Positions 36,656 through 44,336 of a stretch of DNA of 64,000 nucleotides are shown one piece after another. The DNA is from a virus: IMG/VR virus record IMGVR_UViG_3300044712_000815, positions 62,001-126,000 of that record; one strand, given 5' to 3'. A program made the position numbers and the translations under genes. The number at the start of each line of letters is the position of its first letter. The stretch's first letter is position 1. Under the pieces are notes generated by a model, which saw only the letters and a list, made by a program, of their open reading frames with translations, searched no databases and was not told the origin of the DNA.

Positions 36656-37189
36656 ATGGCAGAAAAACAACCAGAAAAAAAAGAAAAAGTAGAAGAATTT
36701 ATATTAACAACGGAATTAATAAAAGAAATAGAAGAAAAAGAAAATTTAGGAAAAATTTTAAAACGATATGAAAAATTGTGGTTTTCAAATTTAAGGGGAA
36801 TTCGAAAATCAAATTTAACATTTGCTATGACAGATGATGAATGGTTAGAATATATCAAATGTAAAATAAATATTCATTATTTCGCTGAAAATTATTGCCA
36901 AATTAAACGAGAAGATGGTACAATCGGACCAATGAAACTTCGAGATTATCAAAAAGATATTATTGATCTATATACTAAAAATCCACGAAGCATATTAATG
37001 GCATCAAGACAAACTGGAAAATGCAACTATTTCAATATCAACGTGTTAGTTAAAAATAATAATGGACAAGAATATAATATTTGTGTTGGGGAACTATATT
37101 ATACTGAATTAAAGAAAGATAGAAAATTAACAATTTTAGAAAATTTAAAAATATTTTTATATAGAATATTAAATAAATTAGATAATTAA
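36656..37189 (+). CDS. Terminase large subunit, N-terminal part with split-intein N fragment
   Basis: Residues 1-122 are the N-terminal extein of a gp17-like packaging ATPase: an acidic helix, then FAENYCQIKREDGTIGPMKL followed by RDYQKDIIDLY (adenine/Q motif region), and RSILMASRQTGK, which is Walker A up to its Lys. At Cys123 the sequence changes to an intein N fragment of 55 aa (CNYFNINVLVKNNNGQEYNI, then CVGELYY) and ends. Cys1, the following beta strands and the E-L-Y helix fit intein block A. The missing Thr of G-K-T is the first extein residue in the downstream gene. The short N fragment recalls the atypically split TerL intein AceL-TerL. Confidence 0.93.
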   Translation: MAEKQPEKKEKVEEFILTTELIKEIEEKENLGKILKRYEKLWFSNLRGIRKSNLTFAMTDDEWLEYIKCKINIHYFAENYCQIKREDGTIGPMKLRDYQKDIIDLYTKNPRSILMASRQTGKCNYFNINVLVKNNNGQEYNICVGELYYTELKKDRKLTILENLKIFLYRILNKLDN

Positions 37190-37193
37190 TTCT

Positions 37194-37228
37194 CTTTCCG
37201 CTTTGGCGAAAAGCCATAAAAAATAATT
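37194..37228 (+). promoter_or_regulatory. Small hairpin and TTAATATATA element between TerL-N and the endonuclease
   Basis: TGGC-GAAAA-GCCA forms a short stable hairpin, followed by an A-run and then AATTAATATATAG about 20 nt before the endonuclease start. It could end the TerL-N message weakly and start a separate one for the endonuclease. Confidence 0.4.
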
Positions 37229-37250
37229 AATATATAGAAATAAAAATATT

Positions 37251-38210
37251 ATGGAAGAAGATTATATAGAATGTAAAATTTGTGGATTTAAATCAAAAAG
37301 AATTTATGGTCGTCATTTGAAATCACATGGATTAACATCAAAAGAATATAAGGAAATGTATCCAGATGCATTGTTATATGCAGATTGTGATTATAAAAAC
37401 ACATCTAAAAATAGTGGATTGCATATGAAAACTGAAAAATATAAAAAAATATTTTCTGAAAAAATAAAAGGTGAAAAAAACCCAAATCATAAATCTAATA
37501 CAACAATAGAAAAACGACAAAAATGTTCACCATTTTCTAAAGAATTTAAAAATTATTCAGATGATAAAGAACGAACAGTATTTATAAAAAATATATGTAA
37601 TAATAAATCATATCAAGTAAGATTAAATTATTGGTTAAATAAAGGATTTAATGAAATTGATGCTGAATTAAAATTGAAAGAAAGACAATCCACATTTTCA
37701 TTAGATATATGTATTAATAAATATGGTGATGAAAAAGGAACCGAAATATATAATAGTAGACAACAAAAATGGCAAAAATCTTTAGTGGAAAATGGCAACT
37801 TGAAATGTGGATATTCTATGATATCGCAAGAATTGTTTTTTATTATATTAGAAAAATATAAATTTGAAAATAGAAAAAAAATATATTTTGCAACAAAAAA
37901 CCAAGAATATTTTATTTGTAAAGGAAAAAGTGAATTTTATCAATTTGATTTTGTTGATTTGGAAAATAAAAAAATAATAGAATATAATGGTGATAAATAT
38001 CATGCAAATCCAAAATTGTATGAAGCTACTGATCATCCCCACCCATTCAGAAAATGGATAACTGCACAAGAAATTTGGGATAAAGACAAACGAAAAGAAT
38101 TAGTTGCGAATGATGAAGGATTTCAAGTTTTAACAATTTGGGATTCTGAATATAAAAAAAATAAACAAGCTACATTAGAAAAATGCTTAATATTTTTAGA
38201 TAAAAAATAA
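37251..38210 (+). CDS. Free-standing homing endonuclease in the intein gap (EDxHD type)
   Basis: A 319-aa enzyme lying between the two terminase pieces. The N-terminus has a zinc-finger-like module (CKICGFKSKRIYGRHLKSHG followed by LTSKEYKEMYP), common in phage homing endonucleases. The middle is a basic, Lys-rich DNA-binding region. The C-terminal nuclease has E in ISQELFFIIL, FYQFDFVDLENKKIIEYNGD (E244 and D248) and KYHANP (H251), the I-I-E-Y-N-G-D-x-x-H-A-N-P hallmark of the VSR-like EDxHD family. It presumably cuts intein-free terminase genes to spread the whole insertion. It has its own AT-rich start region (TTAATATATAGAAATAAAAA). Confidence 0.88.
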   Translation: MEEDYIECKICGFKSKRIYGRHLKSHGLTSKEYKEMYPDALLYADCDYKNTSKNSGLHMKTEKYKKIFSEKIKGEKNPNHKSNTTIEKRQKCSPFSKEFKNYSDDKERTVFIKNICNNKSYQVRLNYWLNKGFNEIDAELKLKERQSTFSLDICINKYGDEKGTEIYNSRQQKWQKSLVENGNLKCGYSMISQELFFIILEKYKFENRKKIYFATKNQEYFICKGKSEFYQFDFVDLENKKIIEYNGDKYHANPKLYEATDHPHPFRKWITAQEIWDKDKRKELVANDEGFQVLTIWDSEYKKNKQATLEKCLIFLDKK

Positions 38211-38219
38211 TTTATTTAT

Positions 38220-40397
38220 ATGTTAAAAAACTATTTGAAAAATATAATATACTTCTTAATTCAATTAATAGAAAAATATGAATTTAGACATTTCGATCCT
38301 AATGAAGATGATATAATGAAAAAATTTGTAAATACTATATTTTTAGAAAATGAAATATTAGTTGAAACTGATTATGGATTCGTTCCTGTGACAGAACTAA
38401 ATATTACTCAACCATTTCAACGATATAAATTAGAATTAGAAAATGGAATATGGTTTGAAGGTGCTGACACACATACAATATTTACTAAAGATCATATTCA
38501 AAAAGCATTAATAGATTTAACAACAGATGATTTTGTTATAACTAAGTATGGATTAAGCAAAGTTAAATTAATAAAAAAAATGTACGGAAAGGTTAGTATG
38601 TTTGATTTATCCATCAATACACCTGAAATGAGTTATTATACAAATGATATATTGAGTCACAACACAGTGAGTGCTGCCATTGTTATTTTACATTTTGTTT
38701 TATTTAATGATGATAAGGGTTGTATGATCGTAGCAAATAAAGGTAAAACTGTAAAAGAAATTATTAGAAAAATTAAAGATATTTATAAATTATTACCATT
38801 TTTCTTAAAAAAAGGTGTTGTAAACTGGAATGAAACTCAAATTGCATTTGAAAATAATTCTCGTATCCAAACAGAAAACAGAACAAAAGACCCATCAATT
38901 GGTTTTACAATTGACCTACTATATCTTGATGAATTTGCACATATTCCAGATAATTTTATAAGGGAATATTATGGTGCGATAGTACCTGTTGTATCTTCTA
39001 TATCCAATTCTAGGATAATAATAACATCAACCCCGTGTGGATATAATATGTTTTGGGAACTGATAACTGCGGCAGAATTGCCTGATGATGATCCAAATAA
39101 AAGTCCATATAAAGCGATGCGAGTTCTTTGGACACAAGTACCTGGACGAGAAGATACAAATATAAAAATTATAGATGCTAAATTAAAGAAATTTAGTATA
39201 TCTAAATCTCAAGTATTAAAGGATATAAGGGAAAAATATGATATAACATTATATAAAAAACACGTTGGGGATGACATTATAGATTGTGTTAAGTATGATG
39301 TAAAAGATGAAAAAACATATATTGATAATATACGAAAAATTAGAATAAATGGAATTCCTCTTCCTGAATTGGCAATAATTAACAATTGGCAAGAAGAAGA
39401 AACAAAATTGTTGGGTTCACCTGAAATTTTTGATCAGGAATATGGATTACATTTTGTGACAGGTGATAAAATTTTATTTGGTAAAGAAATAATAGATTTA
39501 TTAAAAAGTCAACAAACACAATTTGATTATATGGAACTACCCGCATTTGGAAAATTGCCATTTCCATATGATTCTATGAAATGGATAAGAAATTTGAATC
39601 TTTTTAATCCACTTAAAGTAAAAGATTATTATATATTGATATCTATTGATTTGGCTGAAGGATTAGCAAAAGATTATTCGGTTATAAATATATTTAGATT
39701 GATGTTAAGAGATAAAGAAGAAATTGAAAAGTACAAATATGAAAATTTGTATGATTTATTTAAACTTGAACAAATTGGATTATATCGTAATAATGTATAT
39801 TCAATTAAGGAAATTGCACATATACTATATTGTATAGCATTTGAATTATTTGATCCAGAAAAAATTAAAGTTAATTTAGAATATAATATGTTTGGTGGTG
39901 AATTTTTAACCCAATTACCACAAGTATTTAATGGTGAAAATAATTATTCAAATTCAATATTTTTAAGATATAAACATAATCGAGAAGATGTTGGTGCAAG
40001 AATAGGCTTGAAATTAAACAAAGATAAACATTTGATTATAGATAAAGAATTTCAACAAGCTATTAAGCAAAGAAAAATGATACTACATCATGAACTAAAT
40101 ATAAAAGAAATTACAACATTCAGCAAACACGAAACAGCAGCAGGTAATGTAACTTATAGGGCAGAAAGTGGTAATGATGATGTCGTTATGACTACAATAA
40201 CATTATCTTGTTGTTTTGATAATATTGGTTATAAAAATCTTATTGATATGTATGTTAATTGTAATTTACAAGGTGATGTGTTAAGATATATAGAAACAAT
40301 CACAAATAAATCTAATAATGCTGAAAATATGATTGGTGCATATAATAGAATATATCGAAGAAGACCAGAAATGTATAATTCTAGATATCCTAGATAA
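38220..40397 (+). CDS. Terminase large subunit, C-terminal part with split-intein C fragment
   Basis: Residues 1-148 are an intein C fragment. It holds KFVNTIFLENEILVETDYGF, then GADTHTIFTKDH (block B, T-x-x-H type), DDFVITKYGL, and MFDLSINTPEMSYYTNDILS followed by the terminal His-Asn (blocks F and G). The extein resumes at Thr149 (TVSAAIVILHFVLF), which completes Walker A. Walker B with catalytic Glu is IDLLYLDEFAHI (D237, E238), then IIITSTPCG (coupling motif). The nuclease domain begins at D477 in SIDLAEGLAKDYSV. Spliced length would be about 699 aa (122 + 577). It would power DNA packaging and cut the concatemer, docked on the portal. Confidence 0.93.
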   Translation: MLKNYLKNIIYFLIQLIEKYEFRHFDPNEDDIMKKFVNTIFLENEILVETDYGFVPVTELNITQPFQRYKLELENGIWFEGADTHTIFTKDHIQKALIDLTTDDFVITKYGLSKVKLIKKMYGKVSMFDLSINTPEMSYYTNDILSHNTVSAAIVILHFVLFNDDKGCMIVANKGKTVKEIIRKIKDIYKLLPFFLKKGVVNWNETQIAFENNSRIQTENRTKDPSIGFTIDLLYLDEFAHIPDNFIREYYGAIVPVVSSISNSRIIITSTPCGYNMFWELITAAELPDDDPNKSPYKAMRVLWTQVPGREDTNIKIIDAKLKKFSISKSQVLKDIREKYDITLYKKHVGDDIIDCVKYDVKDEKTYIDNIRKIRINGIPLPELAIINNWQEEETKLLGSPEIFDQEYGLHFVTGDKILFGKEIIDLLKSQQTQFDYMELPAFGKLPFPYDSMKWIRNLNLFNPLKVKDYYILISIDLAEGLAKDYSVINIFRLMLRDKEEIEKYKYENLYDLFKLEQIGLYRNNVYSIKEIAHILYCIAFELFDPEKIKVNLEYNMFGGEFLTQLPQVFNGENNYSNSIFLRYKHNREDVGARIGLKLNKDKHLIIDKEFQQAIKQRKMILHHELNIKEITTFSKHETAAGNVTYRAESGNDDVVMTTITLSCCFDNIGYKNLIDMYVNCNLQGDVLRYIETITNKSNNAENMIGAYNRIYRRRPEMYNSRYPR

Positions 40398-41100: not shown

Positions 41101-41277
41101 ATGAAAGATGTAAATAAAAAAATCGTAGTGTCAATTTCATTAGAACCAGAACTATTGAAACTTGTGAATGATACAGTTTCAAATAGATCGAAATTCCTGG
41201 AAAATTGTATCATATCAGAATTATGCAAATCCGAAGATATCAAATCTGAACTAAAAAAGAAATTTATTATTTTATGA
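41101..41277 (+). CDS. Ribbon-helix-helix DNA-binding protein, 58 aa
   Basis: MKDVNKKIVVSISLEPELLK gives the beta strand and first helix; NRSKFLENCIISELCK gives the turn and second helix. RHH fold, as in antitoxins and small phage repressors. The start after the promoter-like element is preferred over an upstream in-frame ATG that would lie within that element. Its TGA overlaps the start of the GIY-YIG endonuclease (ATGA), so the two are translated together and this protein probably controls that endonuclease. Confidence 0.72.
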   Translation: MKDVNKKIVVSISLEPELLKLVNDTVSNRSKFLENCIISELCKSEDIKSELKKKFIIL

Positions 41278-42422
41278 AATGGACTTTAGAAAAACTTCAA
41301 GAAGAAGCTGATAAATATTTGACTCGTGGTGAATTTCAAAAAAACTGTTCAGGTGCATATACATTTGCAAGAATACACAATTTATTGGATATATTATTTG
41401 ACAAACACAAATATAATGGATATTACAATAATAATAAACCTAAAGGGTATTGGACATTAGAAAGACTTCAAGAAGTAGCAAATAAATGTAAAACTAGAAT
41501 GGAATTAAAACAAAATTTTTGTGGTGCATATTCTAATGCTGTAAAATCAAAATTGTTGGATTTTTTGTTTAAAAATCATAAAAATAATGGATATCTTAAT
41601 GATGATGGTTGGATTAAAAATAATTATGTTATATATGTATATGAATTAGAAAAATTCAATATCGCATATGTTGGATTAACAAATAATATAAATCGAAGAG
41701 ATAAAGAACATTTATTTAATCCAAATGAAAAACTTAGTCAATTTTGTAAAGATCAAAATGTATCCTATCCTGAATATAAAATACTAGAAATTGGATTAAA
41801 TTCATATACAGTAAGAAATAGAGAATTGTTTTGGTTAAATTATTATAAAAATGATGGTTGGATAATGTATAATATCGCAAAAACTGGGTCATTGGGAAAT
41901 GTTGAAAAATATTCAAAATCAAAATTACAAAAAGAAGTAAATAAATATAAAACTAGATTGGAATTTAGTATAAATAATATAAATATGTATAATTGTGCAA
42001 AAAATAGAAAATTACTTGATAATTTATTTAAAACCCATTATAATAGTGGATTTACTGAAGACAAATGGACTTTTGAAATATTACAAATAGAAGCAAATAA
42101 ATATGATACAAGAAATGAATTTTTTAATAATAATTATAATGCCTATCATGCTGCTAGAGATAAAAAACTAATTTCAGAATTATTTAAAAATCACAAAAAT
42201 AATGGATATATAAAACAAAAAAATGTAAATATTCCTTATACATTTTGGTCAAAACATAAATTGCAAGAAGAATGTGACAAATACTTAACAAGATTAGAAT
42301 TTAAAAAAAATAATAAAGCTGCATATAGTGCAGCATTAAGATATAAAATATTAGATGAATTATTCAAAAATCATAAAAATAATGGTTATATAAATAAAAT
42401 AAACCCAAAAACCATCAAATGA
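41274..42422 (+). CDS. GIY-YIG endonuclease with five DNA-binding repeats
   Basis: A mobile (homing-type) endonuclease of 382 aa. Two N-terminal repeats and three C-terminal repeats share the core W-T-L-E-x-L-Q-E-E-A-x-K-Y-x-T-R-x-E-F, ending in LFKNHKNNGY. Between them is the nuclease domain: YVIYVYELEKFNIAYVGLTN (the two-strand GIY-YIG core, here IYV and YVG), NINRRDKEHL with the catalytic Arg, and a Glu in RNRELFWLNYY. The repeats probably read DNA modularly. The gene ends inside a strong terminator. It shares overlapping translation with an RHH protein, which is unusual for this family. Confidence 0.82.
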   Translation: MKWTLEKLQEEADKYLTRGEFQKNCSGAYTFARIHNLLDILFDKHKYNGYYNNNKPKGYWTLERLQEVANKCKTRMELKQNFCGAYSNAVKSKLLDFLFKNHKNNGYLNDDGWIKNNYVIYVYELEKFNIAYVGLTNNINRRDKEHLFNPNEKLSQFCKDQNVSYPEYKILEIGLNSYTVRNRELFWLNYYKNDGWIMYNIAKTGSLGNVEKYSKSKLQKEVNKYKTRLEFSINNINMYNCAKNRKLLDNLFKTHYNSGFTEDKWTFEILQIEANKYDTRNEFFNNNYNAYHAARDKKLISELFKNHKNNGYIKQKNVNIPYTFWSKHKLQEECDKYLTRLEFKKNNKAAYSAALRYKILDELFKNHKNNGYINKINPKTIK

Positions 42423-42455: not shown

Positions 42456-44336
42456 TCATTTTACTTCTTCAAATTCTACATCGGTCACATCATCATTTTT
42501 TGATTGTGTCGATTCATTTTGGCAATTTTGATTACTTTGTTCACTTTGTTCACTTTGGCTGTAAATTTTGGTGCTGATGTTATTCCACACATCAGTTAAA
42601 CTTTTCGTATATTTTTCAACATCTACTAAGTTTTGTGCTTTATGCGATTCTTTCAATTTATTTAATTCGGCATTTAATTCTGATTTATCAGTTTCTGTCA
42701 ATTTTTCACCAAATTCTGTAATCTGTTTTTCTGTTTGAAAAATCAAAGAATCAGCTTGGTTTAAAGTATCAATTTTTTCTTTTTCTTTTTTATCAGATTC
42801 AGCATTTTCTTTTGCTTCCATTTTCATTTTTTCAATTTCATCTTTAGTAAGAGCTGTCGAACCTTCAATTCTAATTTTGTTTTCTTTATTTGTTGCTTTA
42901 TCTTTTGCTTTTACTGTTAATATAGAATTCGCATCCAAACTAAATTCAACTTCTATTTGAGGAACCCCACGCATAGCAGGCAAAATTCCGTCTAAATTAA
43001 AGGTTCCAAGATGTTTATTGTCCTTAAACATAGGTCTTTCCCCAGTTGCAATATTAATCTGAACCCCAGGTTGGTTGTCTTGTGCCGTTGAAAAAATTTG
43101 GGTTTTACTTACAGGAATTGTTGTATTTGCTTCAATCATCACCTGAAAAAGTTGCCCTTGAACTTCAATCCCAAATGGAAGTGCAGTCACATCAAGTAAT
43201 AAAATATCTGATGTTTCCCCTGCAATAATAGATCCCTGAATACAAGCACCTTGTGATATAGCGGTATCTGCATTTAAACTTCTGTTTGCTTTTTTACCAA
43301 AAAATTTTTCAACGCTTTCAACCAAATATGGAATTCTCGTGCTACCACCAACAAGCACAATGTCATCAATATCCGATGCATTCTTTCCACTTTTCTTAAG
43401 TGATGATTTAATTAATTCCAAAGTTTTATCAATATAAAATTGAATTAATTGATTAAATTTAGCAACATTTATAGTTTTAACTAAGTGTTTTGGAACATTA
43501 TCAATTACTGTGATATATGGCAAATTTATTTCAGTTTGTGTTGTATTTGACAATTCGATTTTCGCTTTCTCCGATGATTCGGTCAATCGTTGTAATGCCA
43601 TGGGATCAAGGCGAAGATCAACACCAAATTCTTTCTTAAAATCATCAGCAACATAATTGACTATAGCTTCATCAATTAAATTTCCACCCAAATCCAATGA
43701 ACCATCCGTTGCAATCACTTCAAAAATCCCATCATCTATATCCATGACAGAAAAATCCGAAGTGCATCCACCACTATCCACAATAAAATATAATTTACCT
43801 TTTTTATCTTTAATGTTTAGTGAAGCTGCTGTAGGTTCGGATATTATCCGGAGAACTTCAAGTCCAGCAATTTCACCAGCAACTTGGGTCGATTTTCTTT
43901 CATCGCTATTAAAGTACGCAGGAACAGTTATTATACATTGTTTAACTTCGAGTCCCAAATAATCTTCAGCAGTTTTTTTCATTTTTTGTAAGATCATTGC
44001 TGATATTTCTTCAGGTGAATATATTTTATCACCAATTTTAACTGCTGCTTTACCATTATTATCAACAATATCATATGGTCGTTTAAGATGTTTTACATCA
44101 TTATAACTACGACCCATCAATCTTTTAATATTAAAGATTGTGTTTTTTGGATTTAATGCTGCTTGTCTTTTTGCCGCATCTCCAACTTTAATTTCACCTG
44201 TTTTTGGATCAAAAGATACAATAGAAGATGTACTTGTTGATCCTTCTGAATTTGGTATAACAATAGTTTGTCCACCTTCCATTACAGAAACCGTACTAAA
44301 ATACGATCCCAAATCTATTCCGATTATTTTTCCCAT
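42456..44336 (-). CDS. dnaK: Hsp70 chaperone DnaK
   Basis: ATP-driven protein-folding chaperone, 626 aa, close to bacterial DnaK length. Nucleotide-binding domain: IIGIDLGSYFSTVSVMEGG, VTVPAYFNSDERKSTQVAG followed by GLEVLRIISEPTAAS, VDSGGCTSDFSVMDI and DDIVLVGGSTRIPYL. The linker region DILLLDVTALPFGIEVQG (D-L-L-L-D-V type) leads to the substrate-binding domain and helical lid, and the end DVTDVEFEEVK keeps the bacterial EEVK end. Residues equivalent to D8, K70, E171, D194 and T199 are present, but the first phosphate loop is changed from D-L-G-T-T-N-S to D-L-G-S-Y-F-S and one Gly of G-G-G-T is Cys. No DnaJ or GrpE gene is in the window, so host co-chaperones may serve. A role in folding virion proteins is inferred. 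Confidence 0.95.
   Translation of the reverse strand: MGKIIGIDLGSYFSTVSVMEGGQTIVIPNSEGSTSTSSIVSFDPKTGEIKVGDAAKRQAALNPKNTIFNIKRLMGRSYNDVKHLKRPYDIVDNNGKAAVKIGDKIYSPEEISAMILQKMKKTAEDYLGLEVKQCIITVPAYFNSDERKSTQVAGEIAGLEVLRIISEPTAASLNIKDKKGKLYFIVDSGGCTSDFSVMDIDDGIFEVIATDGSLDLGGNLIDEAIVNYVADDFKKEFGVDLRLDPMALQRLTESSEKAKIELSNTTQTEINLPYITVIDNVPKHLVKTINVAKFNQLIQFYIDKTLELIKSSLKKSGKNASDIDDIVLVGGSTRIPYLVESVEKFFGKKANRSLNADTAISQGACIQGSIIAGETSDILLLDVTALPFGIEVQGQLFQVMIEANTTIPVSKTQIFSTAQDNQPGVQINIATGERPMFKDNKHLGTFNLDGILPAMRGVPQIEVEFSLDANSILTVKAKDKATNKENKIRIEGSTALTKDEIEKMKMEAKENAESDKKEKEKIDTLNQADSLIFQTEKQITEFGEKLTETDKSELNAELNKLKESHKAQNLVDVEKYTKSLTDVWNNISTKIYSQSEQSEQSNQNCQNESTQSKNDDVTDVEFEEVK

Follow-up and report, generated by a model that had tools for sequence, protein, structure and literature searches.

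A phage terminase gene fractured at Walker A by a putative split intein with an extra helix on each fragment and an endonuclease gene in the gap

Split inteins in the large terminase subunit (TerL) of phages are known from AceL-TerL and GOS-TerL and from the engineered consensus intein Cat, which combine a short N-terminal intein fragment (IntN) with a long C-terminal fragment (IntC) and are split at the atypical site S2, before block B (PMC13014065). In the natural, atypically split inteins reported to date the IntN measures 15-37 amino acids (aa), and AceL-TerL and GOS-TerL are split after helix 1 (PMC13014065; PMC11766414). Here we describe an intein of this type in a 64,000-nucleotide stretch of viral DNA (the window), positions 62,001-126,000 of the 159-kb IMG/VR record IMGVR_UViG_3300044712_000815, itself possibly a fragment. 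The terL gene of the window is fractured inside the Walker A motif, and the intein fragments at the fracture most likely rejoin the two protein halves by trans-splicing.

Genes that are fractured by split inteins and house Vsr-like (EDxHD) homing endonucleases were reportedly described by Dassa et al. in 2009 (doi 10.1093/nar/gkp095), and, as far as that work is represented in the papers that cite it, such genes share with the window two gene halves, intein fragments and a free-standing endonuclease gene between them, the product of which in the window has a putative Vsr-related catalytic fold. In the same accounts, the features that set the window apart are its atypical S2 split and the MucR-type zinc finger on its endonuclease, while the loci retrieved for its family lie at the Walker A motif of P-loop ATPase genes. 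A TerL mini-intein of the Ackermannviridae (e.g. Shigella phage Ag3, Serratia phage 2050H1, Vibrio phage VAP7) occupies the same point as the window intein (GK^C...HN^T) and has a homologous intein C domain, but is encoded in one uninterrupted reading frame with no endonuclease within the intein. The mycobacteriophage TerL1-a P-loop inteins also interrupt Walker A of a terminase between its Lys and Thr, yet they are continuous and reside in terminase_1 proteins (PMC5050341). In phage MIJ3 a gene is likewise divided in two, with a split intein and, between the halves, an endonuclease; unlike in the window, the gene encodes DNA polymerase B and the endonuclease is of the HNH type (PMC6892783).

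Three plus-strand open reading frames (ORFs) occupy positions 36656-40397 of the window (36656-37189, 37251-38210 and 38220-40397). ORF 1 (177 aa) encodes a 122-aa TerL N-extein up to SRQTGK, followed by 55 aa that start with Cys1 (CNYFNINV...NKLDN), and ORF 3 (725 aa) encodes a 148-aa IntC with the end YYTNDILSHN, followed by a 577-aa C-extein from TVSAAIV; the coordinates agree with the anatomy proposed in a first-pass annotation of the sequence. The point of interruption lies between the Lys and the Thr of Walker A, and fusion of the two exteins regains SRQTGKT. ORF 1 and ORF 3 differ in frame and joining by readthrough is therefore impossible; with stop codons and another gene between them, IntN and IntC belong to two separate ORFs, as in a split intein. 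The roughly 1,030 bases between the half-genes are filled by a complete endonuclease gene that the first-pass annotation had passed over. The features of the locus are as follows.

36656-37021, plus strand: TerL N-extein, 122 aa, ends ILMASRQTGK (start of Walker A); PHROG terminase large subunit, E=7e-18
37022-37186, plus strand: intein N fragment, 55 aa, with Cys1; stop codon at 37187-37189
37121-37186, plus strand: predicted extra C-terminal helix of IntN, RKLTILENLKIFLYRILNKLDN, from conservation and the model of a continuous homologue (L077, below); beyond the 25-37 aa of AceL-TerL and GOS-TerL
37251-38210, plus strand: endonuclease gene within the fracture, 319 aa, MucR-type zinc finger and Vsr/EDxHD-like nuclease
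38220-38324, plus strand: N-terminal helical extension of IntC, MLKNYLKNIIYFLIQLIEKYEFR..., about 35 aa, not in the C-domain of the Cat intein (CatC) by profile comparison
38220-38663, plus strand: intein C fragment, 148 aa, ends YYTNDILSHN; from homologues, L077 fold and substitution ratios
38460-38495, plus strand: intein block B, GADTHTIFTKDH, within the C fragment; A82, D83 and H85 invariant in the alignment of IntC homologues
38664-40394, plus strand: TerL C-extein, 577 aa from Thr+1, with the rest of Walker A, Walker B (LLYLDE) and the nuclease domain; stop codon at 40395-40397

PHROG places the N-extein at the start of a T4-type terminase large subunit, and it is 70-89% identical to TerL relatives in IMG/VR, both intein-free and fractured. 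The C-extein matches Terminase_6N above the Pfam cut-off and a PHROG terminase (E=1e-26). PF03354 does not pick up the window TerL at all, and a lack of matches to this profile therefore carries little weight.

The reading that we favour, at a probability of about 0.9, is that a mobile split-intein element fractured terL at Walker A and that trans-splicing would rejoin the halves. It draws on the anatomy of the locus, on homology and fold, and further on precise empty sites, repeated gain or loss of the element and purifying selection. The residues of a class 1 intein are in place: Cys1 is present in the window and invariant across 11 aligned IntN homologues, block B retains its conserved His, and the intein ends ILSHN^T, with a penultimate His, a terminal Asn and Thr at +1, a position that is Cys in GOS-TerL. 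Cys1 and the terminal SHN|T are also retained in divergent relatives, save for one group that ends in LN and one locus that ends in SQ. A chance resemblance is remote. A scan of IMG/VR with ORF 3 (38220-40397) yielded 33 loci (the related contigs and loci retrieved for comparison carry L-numbers), more than 12 of which have a complete pair of fragments joined to the exteins at the same codon, and a few others show the C side alone; the fragments retain their catalytic ends, and ratios of non-synonymous to synonymous substitution (dN/dS) between close homologues are low (IntN 0.09-0.27, IntC 0.07-0.17, C-extein 0.04-0.14). Both intein fragments are thus under purifying selection.

A contig related to the fractured loci, L077, encodes a continuous TerL of 781 aa that contains a homologous 192-aa intein, the C part of which is 49% identical. 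An AlphaFold2 model of this intein, which stands in for that of the window, adopts a HINT fold, and in a fold search it matched VidaL (E=4e-8), the branched-intermediate intein structure 4oz6 and gp41-1, with the atypically split Cat intein at rank 7. The model was built on IntC rows only, the IntN rows having been misplaced at the wrong end by MAFFT, and its first 25 or so residues are poor (predicted local distance difference test, pLDDT, about 40). A plain sequence search of the PDB with the window proteins returned nothing useful, whereas profile and fold searches did find matches. The assignment as a split intein is supported because homology, fold (VidaL, gp41-1, Cat), relatives with an empty site and purifying selection agree.

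The position of the break within the intein resembles that of AceL-TerL. Block B lies inside the C fragment, as the first-pass annotation had it, and both the profile alignment with CatC and the elements of the L077 model place the split after the first helix and before block B, that is, at S2. CatC matches the IntC profile of the window family from profile position 33 onwards, and the first 33-35 or so IntC residues are therefore additional; roughly the last 20-27 residues of IntN are likewise additional. In the L077 model, a helix at residues 32-42 (the end of IntN) is followed by a four-residue loop and a helix at 47-64 (the start of IntC), a region of moderate confidence only (pLDDT about 70-85). 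The two helices being successive there, the window split would lie in the turn between them. Judged from profile and model, the window intein is of the same S2 split type with one additional, conserved helix per fragment, which AceL-TerL, GOS-TerL and Cat lack. Fragment sizes differ accordingly, with an IntN of 55 aa against 25 and 37 aa in AceL-TerL and GOS-TerL (and mostly 34-73 aa in the TerL relatives of the same branch), and an IntC of 148 aa where Cat has about 104 aa (PMC11766414); the window IntN is thus outside the 15-37 aa range of the S2 type. The unusual sizing noted at first therefore stands in so far as each fragment has gained a helix, while the break itself is at the same topological site as in AceL-TerL and GOS-TerL.

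Both extra helices are conserved at least as well as the intein core: mean column identity is 0.69 in residues 29-55 of IntN versus 0.57 in residues 1-28, and 0.81 in the N-terminal extension of IntC versus 0.79 in the remainder. A role as a docking device is plausible. The initial suggestion that the facing helices help the halves to meet has gained indirect backing from their succession in L077 and from this conservation.

In the proposed mechanism, the two terL half-genes would be translated as separate proteins, and IntN (block A, the first helix and the extra helix) would pair with IntC (the remaining HINT fold and the extra N-terminal helix); the extra helices would probably aid pairing by reforming the helix-turn-helix of the continuous relatives. 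By analogy with known intein chemistry, splicing would then follow the class 1 pathway: after an N-S shift at Cys1 the N-extein would be transferred to Thr+1, the terminal Asn would cyclise and an O-N shift would complete the reaction. The predicted product is a scarless Walker A, SRQTGK-TVSAA.

Several observations weigh against this reading. The fused 203-aa window intein reaches only E=0.086 with Pfam Intein_splicing, far under the cut-off, and the hydrophobic moments of the extra helices are not exceptional. The penultimate His is lost, giving an LN end, in L034, L070, L072 and L095, a group that includes widely separated halves, and the intein of L035 ends in SQ. SQ is an unusual C-terminus for a splicing intein. 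Some relatives may not splice normally. The 159-kb record may moreover be a fragment, and a second TerL could lie beyond its ends.

This last point bears on the suspicion that the fractured gene is a decayed pseudogene or an assembly artefact and that another terminase packages the DNA. The possible incompleteness of the record would leave room for it, as would a second TerL-like ORF in each of the huge phages LR756501 and LR756500. These ORFs, situated beside or far from the fractured TerL (L158 652-1824, minus strand, and L035 6937-7749), are short paralogues (390 and 270 aa) in which Walker A has degenerated to SRQMGI and lost its Lys, and no recognisable nuclease domain was found in either. 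A second, intact terminase, which the first-pass annotation had named among the findings that would refute its reading, was sought throughout the 159-kb record, and one TerL only was present. Purifying selection acts on the two exteins as well as on the two intein fragments, and about 55 distinct TerLs from numerous samples share the arrangement, which makes decay or misassembly very improbable.

The separated halves of some relatives speak to the level at which joining takes place. In the 735-kb phage LR756501 an interval of 12.4 kb, which holds many genes in both orientations, separates the TerL halves, and a 152-kb IMG/VR contig (L070) has a similar interval of about 11 kb. With the halves about 11-13 kb apart among unrelated genes, only the joining of proteins in trans could complete TerL there. 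The LN end and the second TerL-like ORF of LR756501 mean that TerL function in this separated group may not be a safe assumption. Removal at the RNA level, by a group I or II intron that carries an ORF, has precedents in the terL introns of other phages, including Jug phages and ICP1 (PMC12363816, PMC10448857). In the present region, however, no Rfam intron family matched at the gathering threshold or even at E=1, a result on which RNA-level splicing was rejected; the sequence at both junctions codes for conserved intein protein rather than a ribozyme, and genes of both strands lie between the distant halves of the relatives. An intron is hardly credible as an explanation.

The gap endonuclease carries a MucR/Ros-type zinc finger at about residues 2-37 (ROS_MUCR above the Pfam cut-off) and a nuclease-like C-terminal region at about residues 211-316, in which D233, E244 and H251 are invariant across 42 homologues. 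Its AlphaFold2 model has a pLDDT of 87, with an unsure domain arrangement (predicted template-modelling score 0.49), and Foldseek pairs it with Vsr (1cw0, probability 1.00) and the domain of the homing endonuclease I-Bth0305I (3r3p, probability 0.93) at weak E-values of 0.013-0.17. The ORF lies between the intein-bearing halves in the window, and the same order is found in most relatives. From homing biology, the enzyme most likely cuts intein-free terL at the DNA of Walker A during co-infection, and repair after cleavage would copy the element into the intein-free allele.

The relatives have the signature of a mobile element, with about 55 distinct TerLs fractured at precisely this site. In about ten of the 33 loci the exteins directly adjoin each other at the same codon. 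Two others (L018 5053-6084; L027) have at this Walker A point an unrelated, continuous intein of 344 aa with Ala1, LAGLIDADG domains and an HN|T end. Sister pairs differ by the element alone (L010 split and L023 empty; L018 LAGLIDADG and L019 empty), their flanks being 83-100% identical in DNA per 60-base block on both sides (83-97% for L010/L023). Precise empty sites together with a second intein type at one point suggest a homing site. A tree of 69 TerL C-exteins comprises 55 split, 12 empty, one LAGLIDADG and one continuous allele, and its supported branches force at least nine changes of state, gain and loss being indistinguishable by the tree; for the close clade the number is four to five.

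This ambiguity lends some weight to the view that the split intein is real but the element immobile, vertically inherited and sometimes lost, with the endonuclease as a passenger or in another role. The contents of the gap vary, and the endonuclease may be missing altogether. The endonuclease stands alone in the window and L004 and is accompanied by further ORFs in L002, L005 and L013, whereas an unrelated nuclease-like ORF takes its place in L010, a remnant of about 27 aa lies beside another ORF in L001 and L014, and the ORF is disrupted in L028; the intein fragments persist without this endonuclease in L001, L010 and L050. Against immobility, selection on the endonuclease ORF is likewise purifying (dN/dS 0.19-0.42), and almost every family member retrieved sits between intein halves. 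The endonuclease tree also rejects the pairing of the window with L064 that the TerL tree prefers (approximately unbiased test, p-AU 0.014), a conflict that is suggestive only, as the TerL side is weakly supported. An immobile element is unlikely, if well short of negligible, and homing into terL remains our preferred account of the fracture.

The endonuclease family extends beyond terL. A scan with it retained 80 of 215 loci, of which 63 distinct ones were examined. Both junctions could be resolved in 48 of the 63, and in each of these the endonuclease is flanked by intein halves that follow a P-loop Lys, a regularity that is partly conditioned by an N-side search pattern that demanded a P-loop-like context. 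The host genes are mostly TerL; the others, fractured at Walker A, are SbcC/gp46-like (L106, L111-L114, L118, L119, L151), DnaB-like helicase (L121, L155), Clp AAA+ (L110) and Rad50-like (L148) genes. The C-exteins of these four types were identified separately, the SbcC/gp46-like and Rad50-like ones only by weak Pfam matches. In both endonuclease and intein trees the host ATPase genes cluster largely by gene, which suggests few jumps of the element between them. A free-standing relative of the endonuclease is located just upstream of the intein-free TerL of Caulobacter phage Cr30 (L045 3854-4876), the Walker A of which reads SRQSAKST; this may be a precursor or relic state. In L156, besides the Walker A element, the TerL seems to hold another intein end, HN|C, directly ahead of Walker B (CLYLDEFAF).

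The novelty initially attached to this locus was overstated, given that an endonuclease in the gap conforms to the fractured-gene arrangement already known. Also known are insertion into the P-loop of terminases (PMC5050341) and S2 split inteins of TerL. To the extent that this could be checked, the novelty lies in the pair of helix-extended fragments and its wide distribution among huge phages, in the long distances between the halves, and in the presence of one endonuclease family at the Walker A motif of several ATPase genes. Tentatively, and at somewhat less than even odds, these observations could delineate a widespread lineage of split inteins and endonucleases that has specialised in phage genes for P-loop ATPases (TerL, SbcC/gp46-like, DnaB-like, Clp and Rad50-like), with their Walker A codons as the target. 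The TerL branch would descend from a helical hairpin that was cut at the turn. Its two helices would have been retained as a pair devoted to docking, with an efficiency that let the halves drift about 11-13 kb apart as separate genes while packaging still depended on trans-splicing.

The locus offers a natural system for the study of a fractured essential gene, with empty, filled, nuclease-less, LAGLIDADG-invaded and continuous alleles of one Walker A site in related phages, and helix-assisted S2 split inteins with Thr+1 are possible ligation tools. Annotations of huge phages may list a terminase, helicase or recombination ATPase as two fragments with no relation to each other, and such misannotation would affect TerL phylogenies and calls of genome completeness.

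A scan of the region for promoters and terminators gave no signals above chance level. Shortly downstream of TerL, 41274-42422 (plus strand) probably encodes a free-standing homing endonuclease with a weak GIY-YIG domain between repeated DNA-binding-like motifs (PHROG 20046, E=2e-47). It is followed at 42456-44336 (minus strand) by an ORF of 626 aa that by eye resembles a DnaK/Hsp70-type chaperone, an unusual cargo for a phage.

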